A stretch of DNA of 35,656 bases from a virus, in IMG/VR virus record IMGVR_UViG_3300010392_000489, positions 1-35,656 of that record; one strand, given 5' to 3'. Numbering within the stretch: position 1 is the first letter of the stretch; each line of letters opens with the position of its first letter. The translations under genes and the position numbers were made by a program. The notes below the pieces were generated by a model. The model searched no databases and was not told the origin of the DNA. It saw nothing but the letters and a program-made list of their open reading frames with translations. This document shows, piece by piece, positions 4,870-26,205 of this stretch.

Positions 4870-5988
4870 CTAGCCTTCCTCCGCCGATGAACCGATGATG
4901 TTCGACCCGCCGCTTAGGATGGTCGGCGCCCCGGCCGCGGCCGAGTAGCTGATCGCGAGGCCGGCCGCACCGCCTGAGCCGCCGGCCGCGACGCCCGATG
5001 CGCCTGCCGTGCCCGCGGCAGCAGCCGAGCCGCCCGCGCCACCGTTGCCGCCGCCCTTGACGCCGAGACCGCCGAGGCCGGTCACGAACGGGCCGCCGTC
5101 GCCGCCTTCGCCGGCAGGAGGGGTCGCCGCGCCACCGGGCGAACCGATGAACTGCCCGTTGAAGTCCATGTTGTAGCCGCGACCACCCCCGCCTCCGCCG
5201 CCGAGGATCGTGGCGTTCGACGAGCTGCCGCCGCCGCCGCCGCCCCCTCCGCCGCCACCGAGGATCGAGCCCGCGCACGAGATGATGAGCGGGACGTCGG
5301 CGCGAACAGCAGTGCCGCCATCCTCGCCATCGGCGCCGGCCGAGGCCCCCGTGCCCGAAACGCCCGCGCGACCGCCGACACCGCCCCAGCCGCCGATATC
5401 CGCCCCCTGCTCGACCTCGAGCATGACGAACGAGCCCGACGCCCATGAAACCCCGAGGTAGCTGTCGCCGGTCTCGAAGGCGTAGCCGTCCTTCGACAGC
5501 GCACCGAACGCCCCCGTCTGCTGCAGGATGACGCGCACGGCGATGGGGGCGCTGCCGTCGTAGCCGTTGTTGCCGACGATGTGCGCGAGGGTGTTGAACT
5601 CGCGCGCCTGCACGCCGATCGGGATGATGAGCCGCTGCGCGGGGTAGACGCTGCCCTCTTGCGCGCTACCGATCGGCTGGCCGTGCCACCCGGCGCCGCT
5701 CCACAGGAACATGCCGACGGCGCCCGCCGTCACGGTGCGCACGAGAGCGAGCGAGTCGCCGTTCTGCTGCATGACGTCGATGTTCGCGCTGCCGGCGTTC
5801 CAGACCCAGTACGGCACGCCCGGGCAGAGCCAGTCCGACGGACGCGGGAGCACGACTGATGCAGCCTCGGAAGACGAGACTTCCATGCACCGACGGTGCG
5901 GCGGCCCCCATTCGTGCTCGGCGCCGGCCTCTAGTGAGACGAGGTCCCAGCCGCCGAAGAATGCTTGCTCGCGTGCGCTCCAAGTCAT
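4870..5988 (-). CDS. Glycine-rich tail adhesin-like protein
   Basis: This 372-residue protein has two parts. Residues 1 to about 195 look globular and beta-rich, with many Trp residues (for example SDWLCPGVPYWVWNAG). From about residue 195 to the end it is dominated by glycine, alanine and serine, with an uninterrupted run of eleven glycines followed by SSS and further runs such as GGGGGGG. Glycine-rich modules of this kind occur in T4-type gp38 receptor-binding adhesins, where they pack as polyglycine-II helices. Its position inside the tip cassette, between the DUF2460 and DUF2163 genes, fits a receptor-binding side or tip protein. No family was recognised for the N-terminal part. The adhesin role is inference. 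The poly-G tract is encoded by GGN repeats near 5220-5265. Confidence 0.75.
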   Translation of the reverse strand: MTWSAREQAFFGGWDLVSLEAGAEHEWGPPHRRCMEVSSSEAASVVLPRPSDWLCPGVPYWVWNAGSANIDVMQQNGDSLALVRTVTAGAVGMFLWSGAGWHGQPIGSAQEGSVYPAQRLIIPIGVQAREFNTLAHIVGNNGYDGSAPIAVRVILQQTGAFGALSKDGYAFETGDSYLGVSWASGSFVMLEVEQGADIGGWGGVGGRAGVSGTGASAGADGEDGGTAVRADVPLIISCAGSILGGGGGGGGGGGSSSNATILGGGGGGGRGYNMDFNGQFIGSPGGAATPPAGEGGDGGPFVTGLGGLGVKGGGNGGAGGSAAAAGTAGASGVAAGGSGGAAGLAISYSAAAGAPTILSGGSNIIGSSAEEG

Positions 5989-6011
5989 GTCAGTTCGCCC
6001 CGGTCACCGCG

Positions 6012-7040
6012 CTAGCCCCAAAGCACCGGCGTCCGGTTGCCGCTGCCGTCTTCCTTCACGAACACCCAGGCCCTCGAACCGGCCGAGATCGTGCCGACTG
6101 AGTTGCCGAGGTAGTCGAGGACGGTGAGGGTGAATGAGCCGGTGTTCGCGATGAAGTGGTGCGGCCCTCCGGTCGGATAGCTGTCGAGGTCGTCGAGGAA
6201 GCCGTTGAGGGCGCCCGCCGTGTCGACCTCGTAGGCGAACGCCTCGCGAGCAGAGAGGTTGATGTCGTCCGTCTGTGAGGCCAACTCCTCATAGCCGTAG
6301 GGCGAACCGCCCGGCATGAGCGGCACCGGGTCGTCGAACTGAATCGACTCGATCTGAAACGCAACCTCGCCGCTCTCGAAGCCCGAGACGACGGCGTCGA
6401 GCCCTTCGTCAGTCGAGTTCGAGAACCGTGCCTGCGTGGCGTGATACCCGCCCCACGTCACCGCCTCGCCGAGAGCGGGCGCCGACGGCAGGATGACCTC
6501 GAACGAGGCCGGCTTGAACACGAGTCCCGAGGCGACCTGCACGCCCGCGACGGCGACCTGCGGCTCGATGCTGTCGCCCGAGTTGATGCCGAACAGCCGT
6601 GCTTGTGCCGCCGTCGCCGTGCCCTGCAGTGGAACGAGCCGGCGCGGGAACGCCCGCGCGGTCATGCCACCCGGGTCGTCATACTGCTTGCGCAGTTGGA
6701 ACCGGGTCGTCGTCCCGTCGCCGATGCCGATGAGTTGGTCGAGCATCGTCGGCGCGGTCTTGCCATCGCTGTTCGTCGTGAAGTCGATCGAGTCGATGAA
6801 GTAGAAGCCGTAGAACCCGCCGCGGCGCGCGAGGAAGAAGTCGGTGAGGGTGCTCGTGTTGACGATGCCGTCGTAGTTCTCGCGCTGCGCCGTCCATCGC
6901 CACTTCGGCTCTTCGAGGATCTGCACGCGGCTCTCGCCGCCGCCGTCCGCGACGGTGTATCGCGTGTCGAACGCAGGACCGCCCGCGAAACCGTACGAGT
7001 AGCCGGGAGGGAGGAAGACGGGGTCGATGGAGTTCGTCAT
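6012..7040 (-). CDS. DUF2460-family distal tail protein (GTA gp12-like), extended C-terminus
   Basis: The start is placed at the ATG at 7040 because it makes an ATGA overlap with the tape-measure stop, giving 342 residues. The N-terminal 200 or so residues match DUF2460/TIGR02217: PVFLPPGYSYGFAGGPAFDT, then RRWRWTAQ-like KWRWTAQRENYDG, then the FFLARRGGFYGFYFID motif characteristic of the family, then QLRKQYDDPGG. This family is the distal tail protein that caps the tail tube in GTAs and similar siphoviruses. The protein is longer than the usual 200-210 residues. The extra 130 residues end in a small beta domain (HHFIANTGSFTLTVLDYLG), which may be an add-on for fibre attachment. Family assignment is strong; the role of the extension is not known. 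Confidence 0.88.
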   Translation of the reverse strand: MTNSIDPVFLPPGYSYGFAGGPAFDTRYTVADGGGESRVQILEEPKWRWTAQRENYDGIVNTSTLTDFFLARRGGFYGFYFIDSIDFTTNSDGKTAPTMLDQLIGIGDGTTTRFQLRKQYDDPGGMTARAFPRRLVPLQGTATAAQARLFGINSGDSIEPQVAVAGVQVASGLVFKPASFEVILPSAPALGEAVTWGGYHATQARFSNSTDEGLDAVVSGFESGEVAFQIESIQFDDPVPLMPGGSPYGYEELASQTDDINLSAREAFAYEVDTAGALNGFLDDLDSYPTGGPHHFIANTGSFTLTVLDYLGNSVGTISAGSRAWVFVKEDGSGNRTPVLWG

Positions 7041-10000
7041 GGGCGGATGCCACTGCGCCCGCGAGCCGAAACTCCGGCGGTTGCGAGGGCTGCCTTCACC
7101 TGCTGGCCGATGGTCTGCCCGGCTGCCCAAGCCTGCTGCTTGTTCATCGGGGCGGTGACGTTGATCTGGATCGTTGGCCCGCCGCCGCCCGCGGACGCAA
7201 CGCCGAGGCGGCCCTTGCTGTCGCGCTGTAGCGGGACGATGGCCTCTTCGGTGCTCCGGCCGCCCTCGGCAGCCGAGTAGAGTTTGCCCGCGCGCTGGAA
7301 GAAGGTGGGCTCGCTGATGACCTGGCCCGACATCGCGGGGATGTAGCCGCCCGACAGCCGGGGGGAGAACGACGACGTAGCCGTCACACCGAAGCCGCTG
7401 ATGGCGGTGCCGTTCCCCGGGTTGCTATTGCTCGCAAGGCCCGCGCCGATGTTGCCGAACAGGTTGGCGAGGGTCTGCGTGATGAGCCGGTTCTGCGCGA
7501 TCCGCAGAAGATCCTCCGCGAGCGCCCGAACGGCGTCCCTTGCGGTCGTTGCTTGGCTCCCGAGCGTCGACAGGAAGTTCCCGAGCGACTGGCCCACCTG
7601 CTCGCCCGTCTGCGCCGCGCGTTCCTGCGCGTCCGCCAACTCCTCGAGCGCCGTCCGGCGGCGGACGTACTCATCGAACGCGCCATCCTTCAGCCCGGCC
7701 TGCCGCGCCTCATTCTCGGCGCGGACGAGTTCGATGTACTGCTCGCGCTCGCGGCCGACGAGTCGCAGCGCCTGCTCTTCCTGCTGCAGGGTGCGGAAAA
7801 GTTCGGCGCCGCGGTTCAGCCCGCCCCGGGTCGTAGTCTGCCGTCGCTCGGCTTCCTTCTCAACGAGGAGTTCGTAGACCTCGAGCAGCTTGAGGGCTTC
7901 CTGGTACTCGTCTGCCGTCTTGTCGACGCCGATGTCGGCGAGGCTGTTGAGGATCTCCTGCCGCTTCTGCAGCGCCTCGCGAGCTGTGCCCTGCTGCTCG
8001 AGCAGGGCGTTCTCGTCACGCAGCGAGCGGAGGATCTCGGCAGCACGCTCGCCGCGTCGCGGATCCAGACGGGCATCGATGATTCGCTCTTCCTCGTCGG
8101 CGAGTTGCTTGAGGACTGCGAGCTCCTCCTCGCGAAGCTTCCGCCCGGATGCAATGCGAGCGGCCGCGATCTCGGCCTGCCGCCGAATCTCCCGCTGCTG
8201 CTCAGAGGTGGCGCCAAGAAGTGCGACCTCCTTGCGCCGCTCTTCTACCAAACGAGTGATCGCGTCGACCCGTTGACGCTCTGTTTCGGCGACCTCCTTA
8301 GTCTGTTCGTTCCCAGTCCGCCCGGTTCGAGCAAGCTCGCCCTGGATGCGTGACGCCTCTTCCAGAACACCCGAGGCCGCCCCTTCCTTCCCTTCTAGGC
8401 GGTCAAACTCCGACGAGATGGCGGCGATGGCCGACTCGATGTCTGCCGCGATCCCGACGAACTTGAAGCGGGCCGGCCCGAAGATCGATGCCGAGAACTC
8501 CTCCTCGGTCACCGGCTGAAGCCGAAGACCGGTAAGCCGTTCGACCGCGTTCTCCAGAGTCGCGAGTTCGAGACTCGACTTCCCTAGTCGCTGTGCATCC
8601 TCGGTGAGCGCCCGCAGCTTCGCGATCGCATCCGGGGCGCGCTGCTGCAAGGCAGACAGGACTCGCTCGGCCGGGACTGTCGTCGTCGTTCCGGTCTTCT
8701 GGAGTTCACGCAGTTCGACCAACTGCTGGCTAAGCAGGTCGCGTAGCGAATCGGTCGCCCGCTCTGTCCCACGAAGCAACGCCGTCCGGATTGCGTCAAA
8801 CTGGCGTGCTGATGCCTCCGTGTCGGCAAGGTCTTCTTGGAACTTCTCCAGTTCCCTCGACGCATCGCCCACCTCGCCGCCGAACACTGCAAACGCCGCC
8901 CCTGCGACAGCGAGGGCCGTCCCCACTGCCACGATCGGGTTCGCGCGGGCTGCAAGTGCGAGGCTGCTAAGAGCGCGCTCGCTCCCGAGCACCGCCGTCG
9001 AGAACTGCTGAACCTTCGACAGCGCCGAGAACGTGACGAGCCCGGCGAGGCCGACCGCGGTTGCCTTGAGCGCGTTCGCGAGCAGGGTCCCGGCCTGGCT
9101 CGCGTTCTCCATAGCCTCGGTGTCGCCGGCCAGGATCCGAATTGCCTCGGTCCCGGTGTCGGTGATCTCTCGCAGCGCCGCAGACGCTCCCCGTTGCCCC
9201 GACTGGCGGAAGAATGCGTTTGACGCATTCCCGAGCTTCGCGAACGAGTCGCCGAGCGTTCCCGCCGTCGCCGCGGCTTTCTCAGATGCCGAACCGAGGG
9301 CGTCCTGGTCGCTCGCGAGGTCCGAGATTTCGCGCCGCGTGCGCACGAGGCTCGTGAGCAGATAGCCGAACTCGGTTCCGACGAGCGCGACCGCGTCCTG
9401 CAGGTCGATGTTCGCACCGGCGAGGTTCTCGAGCGCCCGCTCGTAGTTGCGCGGGTTGACGTCGTCGAACGTGAGGTTGAGGCGGTTGAGGGCTTCGGCC
9501 GCGCCATCGGCGCCGTTTGCCGGGTCCGCGAGTTGCTGCAGGATGCGCGCGAGGCCCGTGCCCGCGATTCGAGGCTGCACGCCCTGTTGCTGCAGCAACG
9601 CGACCGAGGCTGTGACCTGCTCGAGGGAGACGCCGAGTTCACGGCCGACCGGACCCACCTTGCGCAGTGAGTCGGCCAGGCTGCTGACCGAGGACGTTGT
9701 CGCGTCGGCCTTGCTGACGAGTTGATCGGCAACGCGAACCGAGTCCTCGATACCGAGGTTGAACTGGGCCAGCGTGTTGATCGTCGTGTCGCCAGCCTGC
9801 TCGAGGCCGATGAGCCCCGCACGGGCGAGGTCGCTGACAGACGGCAGCGCGGCAATCGCTTCCTCGGCCGAGGCACCCGCCTTGGCGAGGCCGATGAGCG
9901 TCTCAGTCCCGTCGTTGAACGAGAACCGCGAGCTTCGCGACAGGTCGTTCGCGGCGTCTTCGAGCTTCCGCAGTTCCTCGGTCGTCGCACCGGTGACCGA

Positions 10001-11216: not shown

Positions 11217-12614
11217 CTAGGCGGAACGCTGGTAGAAGGACAGCACCTCGACCATGCGAGCGGTGCCGGCCGTGCCGTAGCCCGCGCCGTCGCTCGCGTC
11301 GTAGGGCGCACCGCCGGCCTCGGCGGTGAACGTGAGGTTCTGCGCGACCGGGTTGTTGCGGCCCGGGTTCGGGCGCTCGCTGACGTAGCGCGCCTTCGGG
11401 AACCGCCAGAGCTGGCAGCGACCGTCGGCGTCGGCAACCGCGATCTCGACCTCGTAGAAGTCGTCCGCGAGCATGCCGGCGTGGTAGGTCGAGTCGATGT
11501 AGAGCAGCGACATCTGCACCGAGGCGCTGAACGTCTGCTGGTTGATCGCGATCGCCCCGAGGTTCCGGGTCGCCGACACTTCCTGCGCGTTGTTCGCGAC
11601 GTTCATGCTGAACGACAGCGGGTCCACGCGGACAGCGTTCGTCTCGGCGAGGCCGTTCCGGAGCAGGCGCACCATGACCACGCTCTGGATGGCGTTCGCG
11701 AGCGGGTTCGAGTTCGCGATGACGGCCTCGTTCCAGTTCTGCACGTCGAAGCCGCCGACGGCCGCGCTCGTTGCGTCGTCGATGATCTGCTCGTCCTTGC
11801 CGATGAACGACATCGTGCCAGTCCAGCCGGCTTGCCCCGGCGCCACGGCGAGCTGCAGGCTGTTCGGGATCATGCCCCGGAACAGCGCCCAGTCGGTCGA
11901 GTCGAGCCCCGTCGTGCTCGTCGTGCCTGCGAGGCTCGTGTCGCTGTAGAAGCGCACGACCTGGAACGACCGCTCGTAGGTGCTGTTGCGGGTGTAGCCG
12001 CGCACAGCGTAGATCCGGACCGCGGTACCCGCGAGGTCGGACGACAGGCCTGCGTAGGCTGCAACCGAAGCCTCGCCTGTGTCGTTCACCAGCGTGATCT
12101 TCGTGGACGTCGGGCTGGCCCCCACGCGGAACACCGTGTCGAGGTTCTTGTTCCCGAACCCTGTCGCGAAAATGATCTCGCCCTCCGCCGGTGTCCGGTC
12201 CCACCCAGTCCCATGATTGAGCGAGCTGTCCGAAACCTCGAAAGTCACCGCCTCATCCGCCGTCGTCACATCTGCCAGCGGCGTGAACCCCGCCGACGTC
12301 CAGCCGTCCTCGCGCGTCACGACGCTGTCGTCGTCGGCGTAGAGCAGGCCGACGAGGAAGTCGTCGTAGGTGTCGAGGCTGTACTGCAGTTGCAGCGACC
12401 CACCGACGTTCGCGCTGACGATGACCGAGCCCGAAGACTGCGCGTCGTTGCGAACTTCGTTGCTCTCGTCGCGCTGGAACGCGGTGTTGTAGTCCTCGCT
12501 GACGAGCCGCAGGACCCGCAGGTTGTTGTTGCCGCTGTTGGGGACGGTCGTATTGCCGTAGGAGCCCTTCGTCTCCTTGACGTAGCCGAGTCCGGGATTC
12601 TTCGTAACCGTCAT
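11217..12614 (-). CDS. Major tail tube protein (Phage_tube_2-like)
   Basis: This 465-residue protein is rich in Ser, Thr, Asn and Val and appears to be all beta. The N-terminus has YGNTTVPNSGNNNLRVLRLV and DESNEVRNDAQSSGSVIVSA, close to the R...E...D..R motif of long siphovirus tube proteins of the Phage_tube_2 type. The family builds the inner tube of non-contractile tails. Downstream lie the assembly chaperones and tape measure, and upstream lies the tail terminator, which is the expected order. ATG at 12614 forms a 4-nt overlap with the terminator stop. Its length suggests that Ig-like or other surface domains are inserted in the tube core; they cannot be delimited by eye. Confidence 0.87.
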   Translation of the reverse strand: MTVTKNPGLGYVKETKGSYGNTTVPNSGNNNLRVLRLVSEDYNTAFQRDESNEVRNDAQSSGSVIVSANVGGSLQLQYSLDTYDDFLVGLLYADDDSVVTREDGWTSAGFTPLADVTTADEAVTFEVSDSSLNHGTGWDRTPAEGEIIFATGFGNKNLDTVFRVGASPTSTKITLVNDTGEASVAAYAGLSSDLAGTAVRIYAVRGYTRNSTYERSFQVVRFYSDTSLAGTTSTTGLDSTDWALFRGMIPNSLQLAVAPGQAGWTGTMSFIGKDEQIIDDATSAAVGGFDVQNWNEAVIANSNPLANAIQSVVMVRLLRNGLAETNAVRVDPLSFSMNVANNAQEVSATRNLGAIAINQQTFSASVQMSLLYIDSTYHAGMLADDFYEVEIAVADADGRCQLWRFPKARYVSERPNPGRNNPVAQNLTFTAEAGGAPYDASDGAGYGTAGTARMVEVLSFYQRSA

Positions 12615-13426
12615 GTCTGCACCTCGAAGTGGAATGGAAGCCGCACGTTGGACTGCCAGGTTTCAGCCGGCGTCCGCCCGATGACCGTCACGCTCGGAGT
12701 CCCGAACGTGAGGCCGTCGAATGAGCACTGGTCGAACGCTTGCACGATGGTTTCGCTTGCAGCCCGACTCGCGGCCTCCCCAGCGCCGAGCGGGAAGTTC
12801 GTCGCCACGAGCAGTCTGCCAGGTATCCGAACGGTCCTGACCTCGAGCTGCAGTGGGGTTAGCGCCTGGAAAGAGGCGAGCGCGAAGGGCGGCGAAACCG
12901 GTAGAGCGTCCGGCGCGTTGTCGAAGTAGGTCGGGATACCGAGCGGCGTCGCGACCGCCGCGTCCCACCGGTCCCGAATCGACCGGTAGGCGGTGATCGT
13001 GTTCGCGGCGATGCGCACGCCGACGATGCCCTGCGGTATGCGGGTGTCGTCGAACTCCCACGGCAGCGAGACCGCGACGCGGTAGTTGTTGCCCTGCCGG
13101 CCGATATCCCGGATGGTGGGCTCGTCGAGCATGTCGGCGCCTGCGTACGACTTGCCTCGGAACTCGGCCGACAACGACTCAGCGAGTGTGTAGGCAGCAG
13201 CGACGCCGGTGCCGGCAGCGACGTGCACCTCAGCATCAGCCGTCCCCGTGACGCGCTCGGTGGCGTTCGTGAGCCGCGCCGTGGACGACGGGCGGAACTG
13301 CCACACAAGCGCGGGCGGCGTAGCCGTGGCCGGCGGGGCGTTGCCCGGCAGGAAGGCCACACTTTCGCCGGTCGCCCAGGCGCGCGCGGCGTCCTCCATC
13401 GCGTTCGCTACGTCAGATAGCGCCAC
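12611..13426 (-). CDS. Tail terminator-like protein with two tandem domains
   Basis: This 271-residue protein starts at GTG 13426, inside the last 14 nt of the upstream gene. It looks like two copies of one fold. Residues 74-89 (GVAAAYTLAESLSAEF) and 214-231 (GAGEAASRAASETIVQAF) align as the long helix of a tail terminator. DIGR (107-110) aligns with VIGR (248-251), and LPWEF (121-125) aligns with LPFHF (263-267). The second copy, with RDRWDAAVATP and YFDNAPDALP, matches the DUF4128-type terminator pattern. Terminators form a hexameric ring that stops tube growth and joins the head. A tandem copy could form the ring as a trimer. The family is inferred from pattern and position. Confidence 0.72.
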   Translation of the reverse strand: MALSDVANAMEDAARAWATGESVAFLPGNAPPATATPPALVWQFRPSSTARLTNATERVTGTADAEVHVAAGTGVAAAYTLAESLSAEFRGKSYAGADMLDEPTIRDIGRQGNNYRVAVSLPWEFDDTRIPQGIVGVRIAANTITAYRSIRDRWDAAVATPLGIPTYFDNAPDALPVSPPFALASFQALTPLQLEVRTVRIPGRLLVATNFPLGAGEAASRAASETIVQAFDQCSFDGLTFGTPSVTVIGRTPAETWQSNVRLPFHFEVQT

Positions 13427-13922
13427 TTTGGAACTCCTGCATCGCGACCTGCAGCGAGTCGCCGAGCATCCCGCGCGGCGCGCTGACGTGGTATCCGCCG
13501 CGCACGAGAACCGTGCCAGCTACCCGCTTGCGTCGAGTCTTCGGGACGTGCGTCGCCTTGCTCGGGCCCGGGTCGCGCGGCGAGAACAGCCCGAACTCGA
13601 TGATCGGTGCGTGCGGGACGTTGTTCTGCAGGTAGATGCGCTGCCCGAAGTCGGCTCGGTTGATGAGCGTGAGCCCCGCCTGCATCACCTGCCCGCTACC
13701 CGGGTAGGACTGCCGCCCTTCGGTGTTGTCCGCACCGGACGGCCCGTCGATCGTGACGTGCCAGCCCGCGCGCAACTGGCCGAAGTTGACCGGCGACAGG
13801 TTGATCGCGCCTTCGAGCACTTTGAACGCGAACTTGCGGAACCGGGGCATGAAGACCCGGTCCGGCAGCTCTTTCACCGCCTCCCGTAGCCGCTTGGCGT
13901 AGTCGCGCGCGTTGCTCGGCAT
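13413..13922 (-). CDS. HK97 gp10-like neck/tail completion protein
   Basis: This 169-residue protein carries the pattern of the HK97 gp10 family: an N-terminal helix (RDYAKRLREAVKELPDRVF), then INLSPVNFGQLRAGWHVTIDG at about 40-60, and later VPHAPIIEFGLFSP at about 103-116. In this family the N..P...G.LR.SW and YA..IEFG segments are conserved. These proteins sit at the neck and help join or complete the tail. It lies between another neck protein and the terminator, with 2 nt to the upstream stop and a 14-nt overlap downstream. A basic loop (TRRKRVAG) near residue 130 is not typical of all members. Confidence 0.82.
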   Translation of the reverse strand: MPSNARDYAKRLREAVKELPDRVFMPRFRKFAFKVLEGAINLSPVNFGQLRAGWHVTIDGPSGADNTEGRQSYPGSGQVMQAGLTLINRADFGQRIYLQNNVPHAPIIEFGLFSPRDPGPSKATHVPKTRRKRVAGTVLVRGGYHVSAPRGMLGDSLQVAMQEFQSGAI

Positions 13923-13924
13923 CG

Positions 13925-14311
13925 CTACGCCCCCAACGCCACCGCGTATCCGATGAGGACCGCTTCGGCCGCATCGCCCGGGCCGAGGATCTCCTTGATC
14001 TCGAGCACCCGGTAGAAGGTGCCCGCGCGCACGCCGACCTGGTCGAGCATGGCCGGCGCCGTCGTGAGTTGCGCCCCCGGCACGACAACGGCCGTCATGG
14101 CCTGCTGCACGGTACTGTCGCTGAACATGCGCGTTCGGACCGGGTCCACGAGCATTGCCCGGATCGCAACGTCGGTCGCCGTCTCGGTGTAGAGGCGGGT
14201 CTCCGGGTCCTCGACTCGAGCGATGTGCCGCCAGGTCATCGCCGAGCCGAAGCCGTCGTCCTCGGTGGCGAACTCCTGCAACAGTTCCGCGAACTCGGCG
14301 CCGAGGGTCAC
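13925..14311 (-). CDS. Probable head-tail connector/neck protein
   Basis: The chosen start is GTG at 14311 because it gives a GTGA overlap with the stop of the fusion gene upstream. This yields 128 residues beginning VTLGAEFAELLQEFA. Starts further upstream would add an Arg-rich stretch. The C-terminal half (MFSDSTVQQAMTAVVVPGAQ, VRAGTFYRVLEIKEI) looks like a small beta-barrel, as in head completion or head-closure proteins. No firm family was recognised. Its place directly after a head-tail adaptor domain and before the HK97 gp10-like gene is where a head-closure protein is expected. Confidence 0.7.
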   Translation of the reverse strand: MTLGAEFAELLQEFATEDDGFGSAMTWRHIARVEDPETRLYTETATDVAIRAMLVDPVRTRMFSDSTVQQAMTAVVVPGAQLTTAPAMLDQVGVRAGTFYRVLEIKEILGPGDAAEAVLIGYAVALGA

Positions 14312-17300
14312 GACCGCGACACCCCCGATCCCTCGCCGCCTGCGAGCCACGGATACACGAGCCCTTCGGCTTTGGCGCGGCGCTTCGTCATGCTGCCGCC
14401 GCCGCCGTTCGCATACTCGGTCGTCTTCTCGAACCCAGCACCCTTGCGGGTCTCCCGGGTGACCGACCCCCGATTGACCTCGTTAGGCAACACGTCATCG
14501 CCTTGCAGGATGTCGCCGGCAATCAGGCAGGTGGCTTCCTTGATGAAGTCCGGGACCGTGCTCTGATCGACGAGGCGCCCCCAATCGTCATGGCAGCCGT
14601 AGCGCGGGTAGCACAGACGCTGGCCGAGGTGCTGCGGGACACCGCGCAAGAGCGGGGCAACCTGCGCCTGCACCCAGTCGCGCGTCGCCTCGCGGAGCGC
14701 GATCTCCTTCTCGTCCTGCGTCTTCTCGGTCCAGAACGTCGGGTCGCCAAACCGGTTCCAGTAGGCGTCGGCGAACGTGATGTCGACGAGGCTCTCCGCA
14801 TCGGCCTTGCCGGTGCCGTCTTCGACGATGAGCGTCGGCGGCGGCGCGTCCGTGCCGATCTCGTCCGTCCCGAAGTCGCCGTCGGCGCCGAGGATGTTCT
14901 CACCGCCATCGATCGCGCCGGCATCGATGGCGACGTCGCCTTGCGGATGGGCCGGGATGCCGGACAGCGTCCCGGCGGCCTGGTCGATGAGGAACCCGGC
15001 CGTGATGTGCCCGCGTGCCGTCCGGTGGATGCCGTTCTCGAACCGGCTCGCACGCTGCGTGTGCAGGCCGTTGAACTCCATCGGCAAGCTACTCGGGTCG
15101 ACGAGCGCCGCATTCGGGCGCGCGGCCGCGATGTCGGCCTGCTTGGCGCGGAACGCCGTCAGGTTCTCGTCCGTGCCGATCGGCGTCTTCGAGCTGAGTT
15201 GCACGATGACCTCGGCGACCGCATCCTGCCCCTTCGCGCGGATCGAGAACTCGTCGTCGATCGCGTTGAGCACCTCGAGCGTCTTCGCCTCGAAGTCGTC
15301 GGGATCGAGCCCGAGGTCGCTCTCGCCCTGCTCCCAGACCTTGAGCACCGGCCAGGGGATGAGTTTGAGCGGGGCGAGCTTCTCGAACGCCTCCTGAATG
15401 TGCTCGCGAACGAGGTGGATGAGAGGCCGCAGGCCCCACGTCAGCTTGAACGTGAGCGGCCCTTCCGCGACGAACGTGCCCGTGAGTTCGACCCAAGAGC
15501 CATCCTCCGCGACGTCGTAGACGAGGTTCCCGCTGTACTGCGCTGAGTTGTTGCCGCCAGCGCCCTGCAACCCCAGCACCGAGTTCTCGACGAAGACCGG
15601 GGCGTTGACTTCCCACGTCGAGAACGCGCCCGCAGTCGCCGTGAACCGGCCTCGGGCGGGGATCAGGCCGCTCGCAGCCTGCACCGTGACGGTCATCGAC
15701 TGCGTGACGGTGATGTTGTTCGGTGACACGTCCCAGGTCACACCGGCACCGAACTGCGCCACGCCCGGGATCGCCTCTCGCGAGACCGACGTCGCGTTGA
15801 CCGGCAGGTTGATGAGCCCGACGATGCCCGAATACTCGCCCTCGTCCGCGAACCGCCCCTTCATGCGCGCCATGAGCGACACGGGCGGCCCGAACGTGTT
15901 CGAGCTCATCCCGTAGAAGTGGTTGGCGTTGACGCCGATGTCGAGCGGTTCCCAGTCGCGGGTAACCGTGTTGAACGTGATGACCTTCGGGTCGACCGTG
16001 CTACCGCCAGGGAATGACGCCGCCGACGGGTAGAGGTCCGGGTCGCGGTCGTAGAGCAGCAGCGCAGACGAGATGTCGCCGACCTGCTGGCTTTGCCCGC
16101 CCACGAAGATCAGCGGGCAAATCTTCCAGCCGCCCGACGGGGTGATGAGCTTGAGTTGCAGCAGCCGCCACGCCTGGAACCCCGCGTCGATGTAGTCCTG
16201 CGGCCGGTGGACGACCATCTCCGAGACCTTGGGCAGGCCCGTGGTCTGCGCCGGCTCGAAGTCCTCGGTCCGCACGAGGCGCACGCCGGGGACCGTCGTC
16301 TGCAGGTTCTCCATCACCGCCCGCAGGTTCTGGGCGTAGGGGTAGCCGTTGACGTTCGCCGCGTTGGCACGCGAGATGGGGTCTCCGTGCCAGAGGGCGA
16401 TCTGCATGTCGTCCTGGCCGAGGTCCGTCCGCAGATCGGTCAGGAACTTCTTCCAGGCGTTGATAGTCTCCGAGAACGACCGCCACGGGCAGCCGTGGAA
16501 GTTCACGAAGGTCATGACCTCCGCGTCCCAGATCGCGAGCAGCGCGCCTTCCCACTGCGCGGGCTGCGACTGCCAGAGCGAGTTGCTCTTCGCTTGTGCG
16601 ACCGTGATCTCGGCAAGAAGCGACTGGTACCAGAGGCTGCCCTTCTGCCAGCCCAGGCACGCCGTCGTCGCGTTCGCGGTCGTCGCGCTCGTGCCGCCCG
16701 TGATCGTACCGGGAACCAGAACCTCGTCGTTCGTGTCGACGACGTAGAGGAACCCCTGCGCCGCGTTGAAGTGGTGCAGCGTCGCCGACCATGACCCGGC
16801 TGTGACGGTCTCGCCGATCGTCCATGTCTCCGGGAACGGGTCGTCGTCGCACTTGATGCACTGCACCGACACACCGCCGAGCAACACGTCGCCGCCCTCG
16901 TCCTGCACGTCGCGAGGCTCGAACGGGATCAGCCGGACGCCGCGGTTGGCAACGTCAGCTTCCTGCACGAAGTGCTCGTAGGCGCCGCGCAGCAGTTGGA
17001 GCTCCATCCCGAGGTGCGCCGCCTGCCCATCCGTGCCGTTGCCGTTCGGCGGGTTCTCCCACAGCCCGTTCGACGTGCCGTTCAGGTTGGGAACGTGGTG
17101 GTGAGCGACCCAGGTGCCGGCCGTCGTCTCATCCCCGACCGTATCGATCGTTGCCTGCCACGAGACGTTGCGCTGGTTGGTGACGACGTCGCTGTCGCTG
17201 AGCGTTCCCGTGACGTCGATGATGTAGAGGACGTCCGAGCCCAGCTCGTTGCCGACCAAGATCCGGAACGACGCGCCTCCCGAGGTCGTGCAGCGGTCGC

Positions 17301-17829
17301 CCTGGAAGAACTCCTCGCCAGCACCGACAGTGGCGCCGTCCAGCGTGATCGACCGCGCGGGCTTCGCCTGCCGGTCATAGAACGGCGTGTCGGACTTGTC
17401 CTCCGGGATGAACGAGTTGAGGACCGCGTCCTGCCGGCGAAGGCCGGGCTGGCCGTAGAGCGGGTAGTCGAGGCCGCTGGCCGCGATCGTGATCGACCCC
17501 GTGCCCGAAGTCCCGTCAGCGCGCTCGAATGTGACCGTCTCGCTCGGCGCGAATGCCGCGCCCGGCACACCGATGGACGGGTGGTCCCATGACTCGACGA
17601 TGTAGGTCGTGTCGGTGACCTTCTTGAGCACCCGACCACGCGCGAGACTCGTCCCGCACGAGAAGTAGGTATTCGGCACGACCTCGATCGAAGGCGCCGC
17701 GAGCAGCGTCATCAGCTGCCCGTAGAGCGGGTCGTGCGCGCCCGGGTTCGGGTCGACCTGCGTGCCGTCTGCGAGTGGCCGCCCGCGCCACTGGTCTCCG
17801 GCGATCAGGAAGTAGTGCGTGTTTGCCAT
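14308..17829 (-). CDS. Carbohydrate esterase-like (SGNH/SASA) protein fused to a DnaT-like head-tail adaptor
   Basis: This single 1173-residue reading frame has three parts. Residues 572-946 resemble a sialate-O-acetylesterase (CE6/SGNH) domain: FVGGQSQ gives the candidate nucleophile Ser580, VWEQGESD lies at 831-838, and FNGLH gives His923. A beta-rich insert of about 100 residues (695-795) interrupts it. Residues 1-560 seem to be a degenerate second copy: FLIAGDQWRG replaces GQSN, with LAIWDAE at 431-437 and VVHRPQDY at 539-546, and beta repeats inserted at about 80-115, 175-220 and 335-390. From Thr999 the sequence TLIVEDGTGKADAES and then FADAYWNRFGDP, CYPRYGC and VPDFIKEA match DnaT-like head-tail adaptors, whose usual N-terminus is close to TLIVEDGTG. 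I found no in-frame start at the junction, after a PPP linker. Such esterases remove acetyl groups from glycans; a role in decorating the neck is inference. Confidence 0.78.
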   Translation of the reverse strand: MANTHYFLIAGDQWRGRPLADGTQVDPNPGAHDPLYGQLMTLLAAPSIEVVPNTYFSCGTSLARGRVLKKVTDTTYIVESWDHPSIGVPGAAFAPSETVTFERADGTSGTGSITIAASGLDYPLYGQPGLRRQDAVLNSFIPEDKSDTPFYDRQAKPARSITLDGATVGAGEEFFQGDRCTTSGGASFRILVGNELGSDVLYIIDVTGTLSDSDVVTNQRNVSWQATIDTVGDETTAGTWVAHHHVPNLNGTSNGLWENPPNGNGTDGQAAHLGMELQLLRGAYEHFVQEADVANRGVRLIPFEPRDVQDEGGDVLLGGVSVQCIKCDDDPFPETWTIGETVTAGSWSATLHHFNAAQGFLYVVDTNDEVLVPGTITGGTSATTANATTACLGWQKGSLWYQSLLAEITVAQAKSNSLWQSQPAQWEGALLAIWDAEVMTFVNFHGCPWRSFSETINAWKKFLTDLRTDLGQDDMQIALWHGDPISRANAANVNGYPYAQNLRAVMENLQTTVPGVRLVRTEDFEPAQTTGLPKVSEMVVHRPQDYIDAGFQAWRLLQLKLITPSGGWKICPLIFVGGQSQQVGDISSALLLYDRDPDLYPSAASFPGGSTVDPKVITFNTVTRDWEPLDIGVNANHFYGMSSNTFGPPVSLMARMKGRFADEGEYSGIVGLINLPVNATSVSREAIPGVAQFGAGVTWDVSPNNITVTQSMTVTVQAASGLIPARGRFTATAGAFSTWEVNAPVFVENSVLGLQGAGGNNSAQYSGNLVYDVAEDGSWVELTGTFVAEGPLTFKLTWGLRPLIHLVREHIQEAFEKLAPLKLIPWPVLKVWEQGESDLGLDPDDFEAKTLEVLNAIDDEFSIRAKGQDAVAEVIVQLSSKTPIGTDENLTAFRAKQADIAAARPNAALVDPSSLPMEFNGLHTQRASRFENGIHRTARGHITAGFLIDQAAGTLSGIPAHPQGDVAIDAGAIDGGENILGADGDFGTDEIGTDAPPPTLIVEDGTGKADAESLVDITFADAYWNRFGDPTFWTEKTQDEKEIALREATRDWVQAQVAPLLRGVPQHLGQRLCYPRYGCHDDWGRLVDQSTVPDFIKEATCLIAGDILQGDDVLPNEVNRGSVTRETRKGAGFEKTTEYANGGGGSMTKRRAKAEGLVYPWLAGGEGSGVSRS

Positions 17830-17861
17830 CGTCGCGCCGCTGTCTTTTTGAAAATGACCGA

Positions 17862-17922
17862 CGCGGCTAGAGCCGAGAGCCGCGCCGGTCGCACCGAGAA
17901 CCAGTCATCCCCCGAGGACTGG
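17862..17922 (-). terminator. Pair of inverted repeats before the esterase/adaptor gene
   Basis: Downstream of the Lys/Ala-rich gene the minus strand has two hairpins. One has arms CCAGTC/GACTGG (17922-17917 and 17906-17901). The other has perfect 7-bp arms CGCGGCT/AGCCGCG (17884-17878 and 17868-17862) with a 9-nt loop. After the second comes GGTCATTTTCAAAAAG, which has a short T run but not a full U-tract. Partial termination or RNA processing ahead of the esterase gene is possible. Function is uncertain. Confidence 0.4.
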
Positions 17923-17935
17923 AATCCGTTGTTCG

Positions 17936-18217
17936 TTACTTGGCCGCGGCCGGGTCGGCCGGCTTGCTGTCGGCCGCTGGCTTGCCCTCGGCGGGCTTCG
18001 CCTTCGACTTCTTCGCCTTGGCCTTGGCCTCCGCATCCTTCGCGATCGCTTCGGCGACGGGGCTGTCGACCCGAGCAACGTGCTGCTCGAAGCGGCCCTC
18101 GACCGTCCAGTTGTCGTTCTTGATGCGGCGATCGACGTCCCACTTGTTCGCGAACACGAGGTCGCCCTCGGGCGTGCGCATGGGGACGGTGCTGTTGAGT
18201 TTCTTCTTCTCGGGCAT
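17936..18217 (-). CDS. Small Lys/Ala-rich protein next to the capsid gene
   Basis: This 93-residue protein starts at ATG 18217. The first 55 residues look folded (TVPMRTPEGDLVFANKWDVD, NDNWTVEGRFEQHVARV). Residues 58-93 are a low-complexity tail of Lys, Ala, Pro, Asp and Glu (AKDAEAKAKAKKSKAKPAEG). No family was recognised. It follows the major capsid gene across a spacer with a strong hairpin, a position often held by head decoration or capsid-stabilising proteins or by small connector proteins. A role in the head is inferred from position only. Candidate families include small neck or capsid-accessory proteins. Confidence 0.72.
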   Translation of the reverse strand: MPEKKKLNSTVPMRTPEGDLVFANKWDVDRRIKNDNWTVEGRFEQHVARVDSPVAEAIAKDAEAKAKAKKSKAKPAEGKPAADSKPADPAAAK

Positions 18218-18254
18218 TGCTCTGCTCTGCTGGGGGGTTCTGAGTTTGGGTGCC

Positions 18255-18281
18255 GACCCCGGATCACTGCGACCCGGGGTC
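18255..18281 (-). terminator. Hairpin after the major capsid gene (attenuator or partial terminator)
   Basis: A perfect 8-bp inverted repeat, GACCCCGG and CCGGGGTC, with an 11-nt loop lies 9 nt after the capsid stop. The following minus-strand bases are GGCACCCAAACTC, with no U-tract, so a classical intrinsic terminator is not met. A stem here could lower read-through or protect the 3' end of the abundant capsid transcript. Confidence 0.45.
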
Positions 18282-18290
18282 AGCGGCGCG

Positions 18291-19493
18291 CTAGTGCACG
18301 CACGGCCGGACTGCGAGGTCCGGGTCGAGGGTCGTGTAGCCGCCGAGCGCGTCGAGGATGACCCCGACCGCGGCGCCGCGCGCCTCGTAGAACATGCGCG
18401 CACGGATGGCGAGGCCGCTCTCCGGGTCGGTCGCGGTGTAGACGCGAGCGCCAGGGAAGTCGGCTTCGCTGTGCTGCGGCAGCGGCACCATCGCGAGCGC
18501 GAAGGCGTTGCGGTGGAACGCGAGGTCCGACTCGTAGTTCGCGACCGAGCCGACGAGGCCGACGGTCGAGACGAACGCCCAGGTCGAACTCGCGCCGAGG
18601 TCACGCCGCAGACGCGGGCTGATCGGCACGTCGGGCCAGTTGTTGCCGCTCGGAGCGGCGTCGGCCGTCACCGTGTACTTCTCGGCGATGCCGGTCGTGG
18701 AGTCGGTGATCTCGATCACCTGCCCCTCGTGCAGCGTCACCGACTGCGAGGTGCTCGTGTTGAGCCCGACAGTCAGGGCGTTCTTCTGCGGCGTGCCGGA
18801 GATGACCGGCGTCGAGCCCGTGGTGAGCGTCGCGTCGCCTTCGAGCGTCTGGACGTTCTGCGTCTCGAAGAAGTCGAAACCGTACTTCGGACCGATGTTG
18901 CCGGTCACCTGCGTCGAGATGCCTCGGTCGCCGGCACCCTGCATCTGCGCGAACGCGCTCGTGCCGAGCAGCGCCTCGGTCGTCACAGGCGACGCCATGT
19001 ACTGCAGCGTCGAACCCTGCGGCACCTTGTTCTCGACCATGAGCCTGCGGATCGCCGGGATGGACTTGTCCATCTGCCCGCGGGCCGTGCTGTCGAGGTC
19101 GTAGGTGTGCGGGACCTGCGAGGCGAGGCCGAGAAGCGCCTGGTCGAACCAGTCGCCGATCGCATCCGCCATCGGGCCGATGTGCTCCGAGATGAGGCGC
19201 TTGCCGCTGTAGGCGAGCTCCTTGTCGGTGACCGTGATCGGGACCTCCTTGTGGATGGTCAGGTCGATCTTGGCCGTGCCGGTCTTCAGGTCCTGGTACG
19301 TGCTGTTGGGCGCGTCCTCGGCCGTGAAGGTTGCCGGCTTGCGGATGTTGATCGTGTCGCCGAGACCGTAGTCGTTGCGTTCGGCCTCGAAGCCGCGGTA
19401 GACCCGCGACGCCATTCCCTTGCGATTCCGCAGCCACATGAGGGCGGAACGAGCCCAGAACTCTGGGTTGTAGTTGTTGAGACGGTTGGCCAC
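18291..19493 (-). CDS. Major capsid protein, P22 coat (gp5)-like
   Basis: This 400-residue protein starts at GTG 19493, with AAGGGGAGG 6 nt upstream as a strong ribosome binding site. It resembles the P22 coat protein family: an N-terminal arm (NNYNPEFWARSALMWLRN), then VYRGFEAERNDYGLGDTINI, then KEVPITVTDKELAYS, and near the C-terminus YESDLAFHRNAFALAMVPLP and RMFYEARGAAVGVILDALGG, which form the HK97-fold core. A middle insertion (about 215-285), SGTPQKNALTVGLNTSTSQ and following, may correspond to the I-domain region. It makes the icosahedral shell, together with the scaffold-like gene upstream. Length agrees with the family (about 400-430). The strong ribosome binding site fits high expression. 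Confidence 0.9.
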   Translation of the reverse strand: MANRLNNYNPEFWARSALMWLRNRKGMASRVYRGFEAERNDYGLGDTINIRKPATFTAEDAPNSTYQDLKTGTAKIDLTIHKEVPITVTDKELAYSGKRLISEHIGPMADAIGDWFDQALLGLASQVPHTYDLDSTARGQMDKSIPAIRRLMVENKVPQGSTLQYMASPVTTEALLGTSAFAQMQGAGDRGISTQVTGNIGPKYGFDFFETQNVQTLEGDATLTTGSTPVISGTPQKNALTVGLNTSTSQSVTLHEGQVIEITDSTTGIAEKYTVTADAAPSGNNWPDVPISPRLRRDLGASSTWAFVSTVGLVGSVANYESDLAFHRNAFALAMVPLPQHSEADFPGARVYTATDPESGLAIRARMFYEARGAAVGVILDALGGYTTLDPDLAVRPCVH

Positions 19494-23630: not shown

Positions 23631-23644
23631 GTGGGGTTAGCGGC
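23631..23644 (-). promoter_or_regulatory. Repeated intergenic motif GCCGCTAACCCCAC, copy 2
   Basis: An exact copy of the 14-mer. It touches the last base of the large terminase stop codon and ends 27-36 nt before the portal start. The context CGCTAACCCCACTGCG extends the match with copy 3. Unknown function. Confidence 0.6.
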
Positions 23645-26205
23645 TACATCGACTCGGTCTCGAAGTCCGACAGCGGCGTCACGAGCGACCCGAACCTCTG
23701 ATGCACGAGGTAGCCCAGGGCGTCGCTCATGTGCGTGTATTTCTTGTCCTTACCCTCGTCGAGGTCGCCCCGGTCGTCGAGCTGCGTCATGTCCAAGTCG
23801 TCGATGAGGTGCGGGCACCGTTCCCGGTCGACGTAGATCCGGACGGTCTCGCTGGCGTTGCGCAGCCGGCTGTTCATCACGACCACCCGGTCGCGCTGCG
23901 CCGGGTTCGCCTTCGGAACGTCGATCTCGAATACCGGCCACTGCCGGCTGAGGTAATCCTCGATGGTCTGCCAGTCGGACCGCTCGGCGCTCGTCTTGCG
24001 CGCCCCGCCGGTCGCATCGCCGTAGCACAGCACCGGGCCCTTGTGCCGGCCGCCCCACTTCTCGAGCAGCCGCTCGCAGACGCGGCGGGTGTTGCTGTCC
24101 TCGTCGATCCAGACCTCGTCGATGACGGCGGTCACCGTCTCGAACGGAAGGTGGTACTTGCAGTAATGGCACTGCTCGCCCGACCGGCCCGGCTGCGCGA
24201 CCGCGCACCGGGGGCACTCGATGAGGTCGTATGCCTGCTCGAGGTCTTGCGCGACGACGGCGACGCCGGGCGAGACGTTGAAGTCGAACCCGAGCAGCAA
24301 CGGCTCATCGGGGTCGTACTGAAGGTCGGTGATGTTCCAGGCGCCGAACTGGTAGTAGGCGCGGCCGGCGTCGGACAGGAACTCGCCGCCGTATTCCTGC
24401 CGGAACGAGCGGTCGTCGAGCTCGCGGCGAGCGGACGCGATCTTCTCGGGCGACAGGACGAGCCACGACGGCCACGGGTAGTAGACGCCCCAGCCGTCGA
24501 GGTCGATGGCCTTCTGCAGCAGCTTGTAGAAGTGGTTCTTGCCGCGCGGGCGGCCGATGAACATGCCCCAGCCCGGCGGGCGCCCCTCGGTGTCGAGCGC
24601 GGGCTTGACGGACGACGTCCACGCCTCGGGCTTCATGTCCGCGAACTCGTCGAGGACGACGCCGTCGAGGTGGATACCCTCGACGCGCTTCGGCTGGTCC
24701 ATGCCGATCACGTAGAGCCGCGCGCCGGTGACGAACTCGAAGTAGCGGTCCGAGATGTTCATCGAGCGCAGCGCCCACTTCGGGATCCACGCGCGGAACC
24801 GTTCCCACGAGATGCGCTTCGCCTGGTCGTGCGTCGGCGCGAGGTAGGCGTATTTCGGCTCGAGCACGCCGTCGGGCGGTGTCAGGCAGCCGTGATGGTT
24901 GCCGCCGAAGTGGAACGAGCCGTAGAGCAGGCGGTGCTGCGCCTCGACCGTCTTGCCGGAGTTGCTTGTGACGATGCCGCCGTGATGCAGCACGTAGAGG
25001 TTGCTAGGCAGCGCAACCGTGATGTCGAAGGTCCGACACGTTCGCCGTCCGACCGGTGTCAGACCGATCCGGTCACCTCGAACGTTGTGCAGCACGAGCC
25101 CTGATGTATCGACGGACCCCTTCTTACGAAGGAAGGGGTCCAGAGCATCGATCAAGCGCAGGGCGCACTCGTTCGATGTCGTCTTGACGTCGTAGACGTA
25201 TCCGTTCTTGTACTTCTCGCGCCGATCAGCGTGGATGGTGAGGTCTTCTTGGAAGTACTTGAAGATGATCTTTCGGCAGGCCTCGACCACGCTTCGGGAC
25301 TGCATCCCGATCTGCACAACGATTCTGCGCTCGGTACTCCTGTAGATCGACCCGTCCGTGTCAATGATCCCCGCGAGCAGCGCTAGGCAGGATTCACGAT
25401 CCCACGTGTCGACCTCGTCCCAGTCGATGACCTTCTCATGCGCATAGCGCCCGTGGCACCACTCTCGATAGAAAGGGATGGCGTCGATGACGTAGGGGCC
25501 GACCCTGACCATCCAGCTAAAATTCTGGCTACGCGCCTTCCTGGCGACTCCGCCCAGTTCGCGGGCCACCGCGTCAGGGACAACATTGTCATCACTCGAT
25601 ATCGTGAGGGTTGTTTTCCGGCCCTCATACCGTCCAGCGTTTTGTTCCCGGCAACATCCATCGCCCAGCATTGCGCCAAGGCTGTAGGTGCGCTCGACGC
25701 TCTTGCTGCCTCCCTGGATCAGATCTCCGAGGTAGATCCGACGGACGCGGTGCCGCTTCGTAAGCATCTCGAGCGAGACCCGGCCGAACCCCAGGGCGGG
25801 CAGGTGAGGTCGTCGCTTGTCGAAGTCTGACTCATTGCACGCCCACAGTCTGTGATTCGGTGTTGCTTCAAGGTACGTGCGCCGTCGCGACGTCAGTGCC
25901 AAGACGCTCTGCACGCCATTGTCCCAAGACCGCGTGACAGTAGTCACAACGGGGTGCCCCTCGTCGAACCCGACGACCTCGTCACCGGGCCGAAGATCCT
26001 CGATCGCGCGGGGCCCCGATGGCGTTGCTACGAGTGTGCCCTCTGCCAGACATCTTCGCCCGGCGGCAATGACATCGAACCGGTTGCGCGACGAGAGGAA
26101 CCGGCGACGCTGCCGGTGCATCCGCATCTTGCCGCCGAAAGTCCGCAGGAACGCCGGGTCGAACAGCGAGGGTGCTTCCTGTTCCGCTTGCTCGACCGCG
26201 GTCAC
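23644..26205 (-). CDS. terL: Large terminase with in-frame intein
   Basis: The 853-residue precursor starts at GTG 26205 (GTGA overlap with the small terminase). Without residues 52-415 the mature protein would be 489 residues, the normal TerL size. Removal joins AAGRR to SGKT and restores a Walker A motif, GRRSGKT. The ATPase continues with KYAYLAPTHDQAKRISWERF and Walker B GVVLDEF (Asp519, Glu520). The C-terminal nuclease shows GFDFNVSPG (Asp641), CYGDATGG (Asp730) and THMSDALGY (Asp828). A four-cysteine zinc-ribbon-like insert (Cys664, Cys667, Cys679, Cys682) lies in the nuclease domain. TerL packages DNA into the prohead at the portal and cuts the concatemer. Without splicing the ATP-binding loop would be broken, so splicing should be essential. 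Confidence 0.95.
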   Translation of the reverse strand: MTAVEQAEQEAPSLFDPAFLRTFGGKMRMHRQRRRFLSSRNRFDVIAAGRRCLAEGTLVATPSGPRAIEDLRPGDEVVGFDEGHPVVTTVTRSWDNGVQSVLALTSRRRTYLEATPNHRLWACNESDFDKRRPHLPALGFGRVSLEMLTKRHRVRRIYLGDLIQGGSKSVERTYSLGAMLGDGCCREQNAGRYEGRKTTLTISSDDNVVPDAVARELGGVARKARSQNFSWMVRVGPYVIDAIPFYREWCHGRYAHEKVIDWDEVDTWDRESCLALLAGIIDTDGSIYRSTERRIVVQIGMQSRSVVEACRKIIFKYFQEDLTIHADRREKYKNGYVYDVKTTSNECALRLIDALDPFLRKKGSVDTSGLVLHNVRGDRIGLTPVGRRTCRTFDITVALPSNLYVLHHGGIVTSNSGKTVEAQHRLLYGSFHFGGNHHGCLTPPDGVLEPKYAYLAPTHDQAKRISWERFRAWIPKWALRSMNISDRYFEFVTGARLYVIGMDQPKRVEGIHLDGVVLDEFADMKPEAWTSSVKPALDTEGRPPGWGMFIGRPRGKNHFYKLLQKAIDLDGWGVYYPWPSWLVLSPEKIASARRELDDRSFRQEYGGEFLSDAGRAYYQFGAWNITDLQYDPDEPLLLGFDFNVSPGVAVVAQDLEQAYDLIECPRCAVAQPGRSGEQCHYCKYHLPFETVTAVIDEVWIDEDSNTRRVCERLLEKWGGRHKGPVLCYGDATGGARKTSAERSDWQTIEDYLSRQWPVFEIDVPKANPAQRDRVVVMNSRLRNASETVRIYVDRERCPHLIDDLDMTQLDDRGDLDEGKDKKYTHMSDALGYLVHQRFGSLVTPLSDFETESM
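24961..26052 (-). mobile_element. Intein with LAGLIDADG homing endonuclease, inserted in the TerL Walker A
   Basis: This is a 364-residue in-frame insert (precursor residues 52-415). It begins with Cys52 in CLAEGTLVATPSG (block A), has TPNH at 115-118 (block B), LAGLIDADG-type motifs at 175-184 (SLGAMLGDGC) and 276-285 (LLAGIIDTDG), TCRTFDITV at 389-397 (block F) and ends HGGIVTSN with Asn415 followed by Ser416 (+1). The penultimate residue is Ser instead of the usual His, which may slow or alter Asn cyclisation. GC content is lower than in the flanks by hand count: 52% in 25201-25260 and 58% in 25261-25320, against 72% in 24421-24480. This agrees with horizontal arrival. Two endonuclease motifs suggest an active or recent homing element, though this was not tested. 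Confidence 0.92.

Follow-up and report, generated by a model that had tools for sequence, protein, structure and literature searches.

Why should one reading frame join an esterase-like region to a phage head-tail adaptor? The question is raised by the 35,656-base virus record IMGVR_UViG_3300010392_000489, of the IMG/VR type, which was analysed over its whole length and is called the window below. Its gene at 14308-17829 encodes a protein of 1173 amino acids in one continuous frame, as the original prediction, made from the letters alone, had already described without giving a strand; the strand is the minus strand. We lean, with moderate confidence, towards the answer that this is an adaptor with a large SGNH esterase-like N-terminal extension, of which about twelve arms would point outward round the neck and act on, or hold, acetylated glycans. 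The architecture of the fusion is well supported, and outward display and activity we infer. The parts of the gene are as follows.

14308..17829, minus strand: fusion gene, 1173 amino acids, esterase-like N-terminal part and head-tail adaptor, a single open reading frame from an ATG
14311..14835, minus strand: adaptor domain, residues 999-1173, by PHROG_477 and Pfam DnaT_2
14836..14997, minus strand: linker rich in Gly/Asp/Ala/Pro, residues ~945-998, with no ATG, GTG or TTG, by composition, limits estimated
14998..16134, minus strand: SGNH/SASA-like module 2, residues ~566-944, perhaps interrupted by a beta-rich insertion at ~690-795, by a SASA match below the cut-off
15007..15036, minus strand: NGIHRTARGH, residues 932-941, candidate for block V with His935, Asn932 standing where Asp is usual, by sequence
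15316..15336, minus strand: WEQGESD, residues 832-838, candidate for block III, by sequence, within the SASA match
16078..16101, minus strand: GGQSQQVG, residues 577-584, candidate for block I with Ser580, by sequence
16153..17829, minus strand: module 1, residues 1-559, which may be a degenerate copy of an SGNH module containing beta-rich insertions, by motif reading only

Profile comparison identifies the last 175 residues as a full adaptor of the DnaT_2 / PHROG_477 family. Residues 999-1169 matched PHROG_477, "head-tail adaptor Ad1", with an E value of 3e-26, and Pfam PF20557 (DnaT_2) with 87 bits against a cut-off of 27, over positions 2-160 of the 168 in the profile; the DnaT-like head-tail adaptor read by eye in the original prediction was thus recovered. 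The domain resembles other Ad1 adaptors in this nearly full match and in its usual gene position, between the major head protein and the head closure, Neck1 and terminator genes. Unlike stand-alone Ad1 adaptors, in which a few residues come before the VEDG motif, it is preceded by 998 residues; the close start that is usual in the family is lacking here, which is no bar to membership.

The place of the join was compared with the starts of adaptor relatives, of which the best 80 of 271 and the best 80 of 306 were kept. The 173 loci scanned were L006-L178 (the L-numbers are labels of comparison loci in this analysis). Five of them gave no adaptor match (L090-L093 and L096), leaving 168, of which 112 were distinct by match sequence. 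Two of the 168 lacked the motif; 109 distinct frames remained for the survey of start codons and, with two running off an end, 107 were complete. In 98 of these 107 distinct frames, the VEDG-type motif follows the farthest possible start by 2-8 residues, and in all 107 the C-terminus lies 149-199 residues from the motif. In the window protein the motif is at residue 1002, so that the join and the usual stand-alone start are only a few residues apart, as had been proposed. The lack of a nearby in-frame start codon also held, no ATG, GTG or TTG being found between residues 918 and 1052, and homologues with a different N-terminus and a start inside this frame, which would have told against the join, were not borne out. 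Given the site of the motif, the missing start codons and the usual start distance, it appears very unlikely that a free window adaptor is made from an internal start.

The frame itself showed no sign of a frameshift, its third-position content of guanine plus cytosine (GC) being even, at 82-97% in 20 of 20 blocks. IMG/VR contig 3300005600_000060 contains the entire frame and 3300027820_000158 covers the junction, both free of gaps, in samples that may not be independent of that of the window. Across the IMG/VR contigs, the gene differs at four bases, each of them a third codon position, and the proteins were 100% identical. These three observations make an assembly accident not likely, and the stop or frameshift that might have been hidden at the junction was not seen.

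A search for homologues with the same order of domains, which had been proposed as a check, revealed a second lineage. Four contigs (L068-L071, among the best 80 of the 271 adaptor loci) encode a 449-amino-acid fusion protein or a fragment of it. In L069, residues 1-273 matched SASA with 37.3 bits, above the cut-off of 24.8, and retain GDSL, GTND and DQIH, and residues 275-447 matched DnaT_2 with 110 bits (cut-off 27). L094 is a diverged copy, 85% identical, with SASA at 29.5 bits (cut-off 24.8) and DnaT_2 at 113.6 bits (cut-off 27), again in one frame. The loci L119, L123 and L026 share the genes and gene order of L069, without the esterase part; their major head proteins are 80-87% and their adaptors 71-73% identical, and the spacing after the head protein gene is 66-71 bases for the stand-alone adaptor and 65-66 bases for the fusion gene in L069 and L094. 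L069 and these three loci are a with/without pair for the esterase part. On a quick 77-row adaptor tree, in which 34 of 74 inner branches are open, the SGNH label takes two changes, the number that the starred branches also force; on this evidence, the joins in the window and in the L069 group would have arisen separately. A SASA domain above the cut-off on the same adaptor family in a second lineage makes the reading as an SGNH-adaptor fusion stronger than it would be from the window alone.

Phage records were also compared with the L069 fusion: 378 matched, none over more than 80% of the query in one place. Among the 30 matches listed, Marchewka and ctIqW946 were considered as fusions and rejected; their matches extend upstream of the adaptor, but separate annotated genes lie there.

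The N-terminal half of the window protein is probably, and not provably, CE6-like, since SASA stayed below its cut-off and NCBIfam gave no match for four pieces of the protein. The original prediction of a CE6/sialate-O-acetylesterase-like region agrees in part with the block motifs, and the Pfam score falls short of it. Like SASA / CE6 SGNH esterases (PF03629), which include the domains of L069, L094 and L091 above the cut-off, module 2 has candidates for these motifs; unlike them, it scores below the Pfam gathering cut-off and is seemingly interrupted by an insertion. On account of this score we call it SASA-like and not a member of SASA. Ser580 in GGQS was placed correctly, WEQGESD was recognised correctly and lies at 832-838 instead of 831-838, and FGPPVSL is found at 646-652, followed by a stretch of about 100 residues before WEQGESD that is possibly the insertion. 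For the catalytic His, His935 in NGIHRTARGH is a better candidate than His923 in NGLH, which had been proposed. SGNH enzymes usually have an Asp three residues before the catalytic His. Asn occupies this place before both His923 and His935, and with Asn932 in place of the usual Asp the activity of module 2 is not assured. In module 1, GDQW (11-14), WDAEV (434-438) and VVHRPQ (539-544) were picked out by eye; it is possibly an SGNH copy, a guess based on these motifs.

Several results weigh against the esterase reading. SASA matched residues 831-933 of the long protein with 19.6-20 bits (E 6e-4 to 8e-4), against the cut-off of 24.8. When the two halves were searched separately, as had been suggested, the adaptor gave its 87 bits, whereas residues 560-998 alone gave SASA at 15.0 bits (E 0.02), below the cut-off. 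With the presumed insertion removed, the match began at profile position 60 instead of 124 and reached 17.7 bits (E 0.003), still below the cut-off. Module 1 had no Pfam match. Profile alignment of module 2 with the L069 SASA domain gave E 0.15, and profile-profile comparisons of module 1 with module 2 and with the L069 domain gave no significant match; these nulls are weak evidence either way, as each of the three alignments held only 2-3 near-identical or close sequences. No relatives of the window esterase part were found in the phage record collection by a single-sequence scan, which finds close relatives only, and the L069 SASA domain had none among phage or plasmid records. L069 also has in-frame start codons 14 and 10 codons before its junction, and translation from these could yield an adaptor without the extension as well.

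The predicted structures fall partly on the same side. AlphaFold modelling of the full window protein, another of the proposed checks, succeeded for the adaptor (block means of 86-97 in the predicted local distance difference test, pLDDT, for residues 1001-1110) and not for residues 1-990, mostly below 50. Structure searches with this full-length model returned no adaptor or SGNH match among the best 50 rows each, and are not meaningful because of the poorly modelled residues. In the L069 model the adaptor was confident and residues 181-240 had block means of 71-86; residues 1-160, which include the GDSL block, were mostly below 60. For the N-terminal half of that model, 19 of the first 23 rows from VIA-align were by title esterases, thioesterase I or platelet-activating factor (PAF) acetylhydrolases, eight of the 19 being entries of one PAF acetylhydrolase family, at Z 5.5-6.4; every L069 Z value was below 8 and possibly reflects just a common arrangement. 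Examples are the sialate O-acetylesterase 6xpm (Z 6.3), 2waa of family CE2 (Z 6.0), the acetylxylan esterase 1zmb (Z 5.7) and 4xvh, also CE2. Residues 275-446 matched chain 8q01_b of the phage 812 neck entry (Z 5.5), the protein being unnamed in the row. Foldseek gave 2wao_A a probability of 0.99 but an E value of 0.05, and no PDB entry matched the L069 model at E 0.001 or better. Among viral models there were 14 matches at E 0.001 or better, three named DnaT-like and most nameless; a protein with an SGNH_hydrolase domain came next (E 0.009).

Other searches for relatives returned little. Among viral contigs, the window N-terminal half matched near-identical ones only, in single-sequence scans that find close relatives only. 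None of the 385 genomes of the class of G004 matched the esterase part, in a search run without a positive control, and in two Vibrio phages the large genes that precede the adaptor showed no significant similarity to it (best E 1.1). No solved relative was found by sequence for the whole protein at E 1 or for module 2 at E 10; by profile, the adaptor gave two chance-like matches (E 0.06 and 0.12) and the A2 profile three.

How would such a protein be used? We propose that the free N-terminus of the adaptor acquired the large esterase-like extension. By analogy with solved adaptors of other phages, which are dodecamers set between portal and stopper, twelve copies would form a ring under the portal, the C-terminus gripping the portal and the N-terminus facing outward. 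In phage JBD30 the adaptor has its C-terminus wedged into the portal (PMC11445458), and in phage 812 the outside of the neck bears an adaptor beta-sandwich (PMC12886913). Should the DnaT_2 adaptor share this design, some twelve esterase-like arms would encircle the neck of the window phage on the flexible Gly/Asp/Ala/Pro-rich linker; an adaptor N-terminus serving as an outward mount for them is our best reading. Less surely, the arms would deacetylate, or at least bind, O-acetylated capsule, exopolysaccharide or lipopolysaccharide on approach to the cell. Deacetylation or binding of acetylated surface glycans during passage through the glycan layer would be the most likely use, with module 2 as the catalytic copy and module 1 as a degenerate, perhaps glycan-binding one.

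The alternative that survives best, which we nevertheless consider unlikely, is that catalysis has been lost and the arm is a displayed lectin-like glycan-binding domain, a pseudo-esterase aiding adsorption. It would account for GDQW in module 1 where a Ser is expected and for Asn932 in module 2, by the motif expectation given above, and it agrees with the immunoglobulin-like (Ig-like) cargo on a related adaptor described below. It also has a parallel in the neck passage structures of 936 lactococcal phages, whose C-terminal domains include some like a carbohydrate-esterase binding module (PMC6669499). Module 2, however, has Ser580, WEQGESD and His935, and GDSL, GTND and DQIH are retained in the L069 domain, which is of independent origin. 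More improbable is a purely structural extension, an attachment domain serving to brace neck against capsid. It has precedents in roseophage R4C, where the authors suggest such a role for an Ig-like domain (PMC10276861), and in the phage 812 beta-sandwich, which touches the capsid (PMC12886913). Against it, about 1000 residues with esterase-like motifs seem, in our judgement, far beyond what bracing needs, and the near relatives of L069 have no extension at all. It is also improbable, and rather more so, that the protein is cut after translation, the esterase part being released into the lysate or packaged separately while an ordinary adaptor enters the virion. Linkers rich in Gly/Asp/Ala/Pro are often reached by proteases, and the junction is one of these (residues 959-998 hold 8 G, 7 D, 6 A and 5 P among 40), but two products would be had more simply from separate genes, and joining took place more than once, an indirect argument. 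Least of all is to be expected of a false join of two genes through misassembly or an unseen frameshift, in favour of which nothing was found and which is contradicted by the gap-free junction in two other contigs, the third-position-only differences, the even third-position GC and the comparable fusions in other contigs.

The reading of the neck as a mount for esterase-like arms would extend beyond these two lineages. In L090-L093, an L069-type SASA domain (83% identical) is followed by a Pro-rich linker and then by a different C-terminal protein; the domain of L091 scores 34.2 bits, above the cut-off of 24.8. The L091 fusion lies at 5001-6308 of its locus, and its next gene is Neck1. Stand-alone forms of the L091-type C-terminal protein, of 154 amino acids, occur in L200-L203 and begin at the fusion join. 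The protein had no Pfam, PHROG or phage match, and from gene position only we take it to be a neck-position protein of unassigned family. In L157 (4722-5519) and L159, a roughly 96-residue Ig-like domain (IG_AIR9 at 26.8 bits, slightly short of the cut-off of 27.5) is N-terminal on a DnaT_2 adaptor, which stands alone in their near relative L163. The addition is N-terminal in each of these fusions, and the C-terminus is compact in all 107 frames.

In nine of the 107 frames, a possible start lies at least 10 residues ahead of the motif. Four are fusions (L008, which is the window copy, L088, L094 and L159), which is not a natural frequency, since loci were gathered by VEDGTGK-type patterns and L094 was reached only via the SGNH query. 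The other five are L014, L033, L169, L111 and L112; four of these also start 1-4 residues before the motif, and the nearest start in L111 is at 12. PF20557 had matches in 19 of the 385 genomes from the class of G004, and in 4 of the 369 (three over the cut-off) from that of G001. A scan of 18 loci on genome contigs gave no further fusion by frame length. In five prophage loci (L188, L189 and L190, with the three longest frames, L191 and L192), read by eye with no family search, the internal starts looked ordinary and no added domain was recognised; the frame length of L190 was 283 by program and 162 codons by reading.

Of the proteins encoded directly upstream of the adaptor, ten were scanned, chosen from 108 cluster representatives, and four had a domain above the cut-off (Laminin_G_3, DUF1565, a glycosyltransferase and a methyltransferase). 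The pre-adaptor genes noted were L040:2018-2782, L087:3986-4981, L021:4222-4974, L160:4094-4993 and L152:2334-3719; this slot held Laminin_G_3, DUF1565, a family 2 glycosyltransferase, a TylF-like methyltransferase and a repeat-like protein with no Pfam match. Such varied accessory genes imply that insertions there may be common and occasionally in frame, and the slot is perhaps an insertion hotspot.

A wider proposal, which we put forward tentatively and rate somewhat below an even chance, is that small neck proteins of tailed phages offer, in their N-terminus, an outward mount of general use on which surface-active cargo has repeatedly been placed in frame at the start codon, and that the esterases would form a twelve-fold enzymatic collar, sited where head meets tail and not at the tail tip, stripping acetyl groups from glycans round the cell. 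On this proposal, SGNH esterases would have been added at least twice to DnaT_2 adaptors, the same esterase once to another neck-position protein, and an Ig-like domain to a third adaptor.

No description of an esterase fused to an adaptor was found among the papers listed from the open-licence literature searched (titles, starts of abstracts, and passages). Known decorated or enzymatic necks nevertheless make the present case less than categorically new, and four of them lower its novelty. R4C has an N-terminal Ig-like adaptor domain (residues 1-106), peripheral and outside the shell, in 12 copies (PMC10276861). The likeness is the extra N-terminal domain on an adaptor; the R4C domain, in contrast, is Ig-like and non-enzymatic, and its authors suggest a role in local stability (PMC10276861). 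In P22, the neck protein gp4 has lysozyme activity and forms a dodecamer at the connector, and a 2017 review calls it the only virion-associated lysin then described at the neck (PMC5380687). It brings an enzyme activity to the head-tail connector as a dodecamer, as is proposed here for the window protein, and it differs in being a peptidoglycan hydrolase. P22 gp4 is not known to be fused to an SGNH domain. One pre-neck appendage enzyme is gp12 of phi29. According to the 2017 review, Dpo7 of Staphylococcus phage vB_SepiS-phiIPLA7 is a pre-neck appendage depolymerase, an exception among phage depolymerases, which are mostly at the tail or baseplate (PMC5380687). Dpo7 and phi29 gp12 are similar in degrading glycan or teichoic acid near the neck, and differ in being separate appendage proteins outside the adaptor. 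The 936 neck passage structures bring carbohydrate-recognising domains to the neck (PMC6669499), but on a separate trimeric fibre protein with binding modules and no adaptor fusion. Collar whiskers and neck fibres are likewise a separate trimeric coiled-coil fibre protein, whereas here the arm would be part of the adaptor itself.

The surroundings of the fusion gene are those of an ordinary head-neck-tail region, in the order major head protein, small gene, fusion gene, head closure Hc1, Neck1, tail terminator and minor tail protein:

18291..19493, minus strand: major head protein (PHROG_283, E 1e-51)
13925..14311, minus strand: head closure Hc1 gene (PHROG_161, E 5e-7)
13413..13922, minus strand: tail completion / Neck1 (PHROG_169, E 2e-17)
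12611..13426, minus strand: tail terminator (PHROG_179, E 4e-20)
11217-12614: minor tail protein, in the head-neck-tail gene order

At 14308-14311, as read from the sequence, a single GTGA contains both the stop codon of the fusion gene and the GTG with which Hc1 probably starts, an overlap consistent with coupled translation. A scan of 14000-18700 for promoters and terminators gave no promoter-like site and one terminator-like site, against 2.3 expected. Elsewhere in the window, the large terminase subunit (23644-26205, minus strand, 853 amino acids, PHROG terminase match at 416-838) carries an intein-like insert, with Hint_2 at 52-121 (34.6 bits, cut-off 28.4) and a LAGLIDADG match below the cut-off at 274-345. 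Proteins of the DUF2460 and Phage-tail_3 / Rcc01698_C families (6012-7130 and 3-4178, both minus strand) belong to a tail tip of the Rhodobacter gene-transfer-agent (RcGTA) type, which hints at an alphaproteobacterial host; the tail-tip genes of R4C are presumably of the same type. A protein with PKD and a beta-helix match below the cut-off (30185-32539, minus strand) and its beta-helix neighbour (32546-33865, minus strand) are possible tailspike or depolymerase candidates.

The collinear pair of L069, with the esterase part, and L119/L026, without it, allows the question to be tested by comparison, and display on laboratory phages is a possible use of the adaptor N-terminus. If the esterase-arm reading is true, phages would have in this N-terminus a natural place for display, able to take on some 1000 residues and leave the joint between head and tail intact, and the neck would be a further site for glycan-meeting enzymes besides the tail or baseplate and the pre-neck appendage. 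That a similar join was apparently made independently in another lineage suggests that some phages may display sugar-modifying or sugar-binding domains round the neck.

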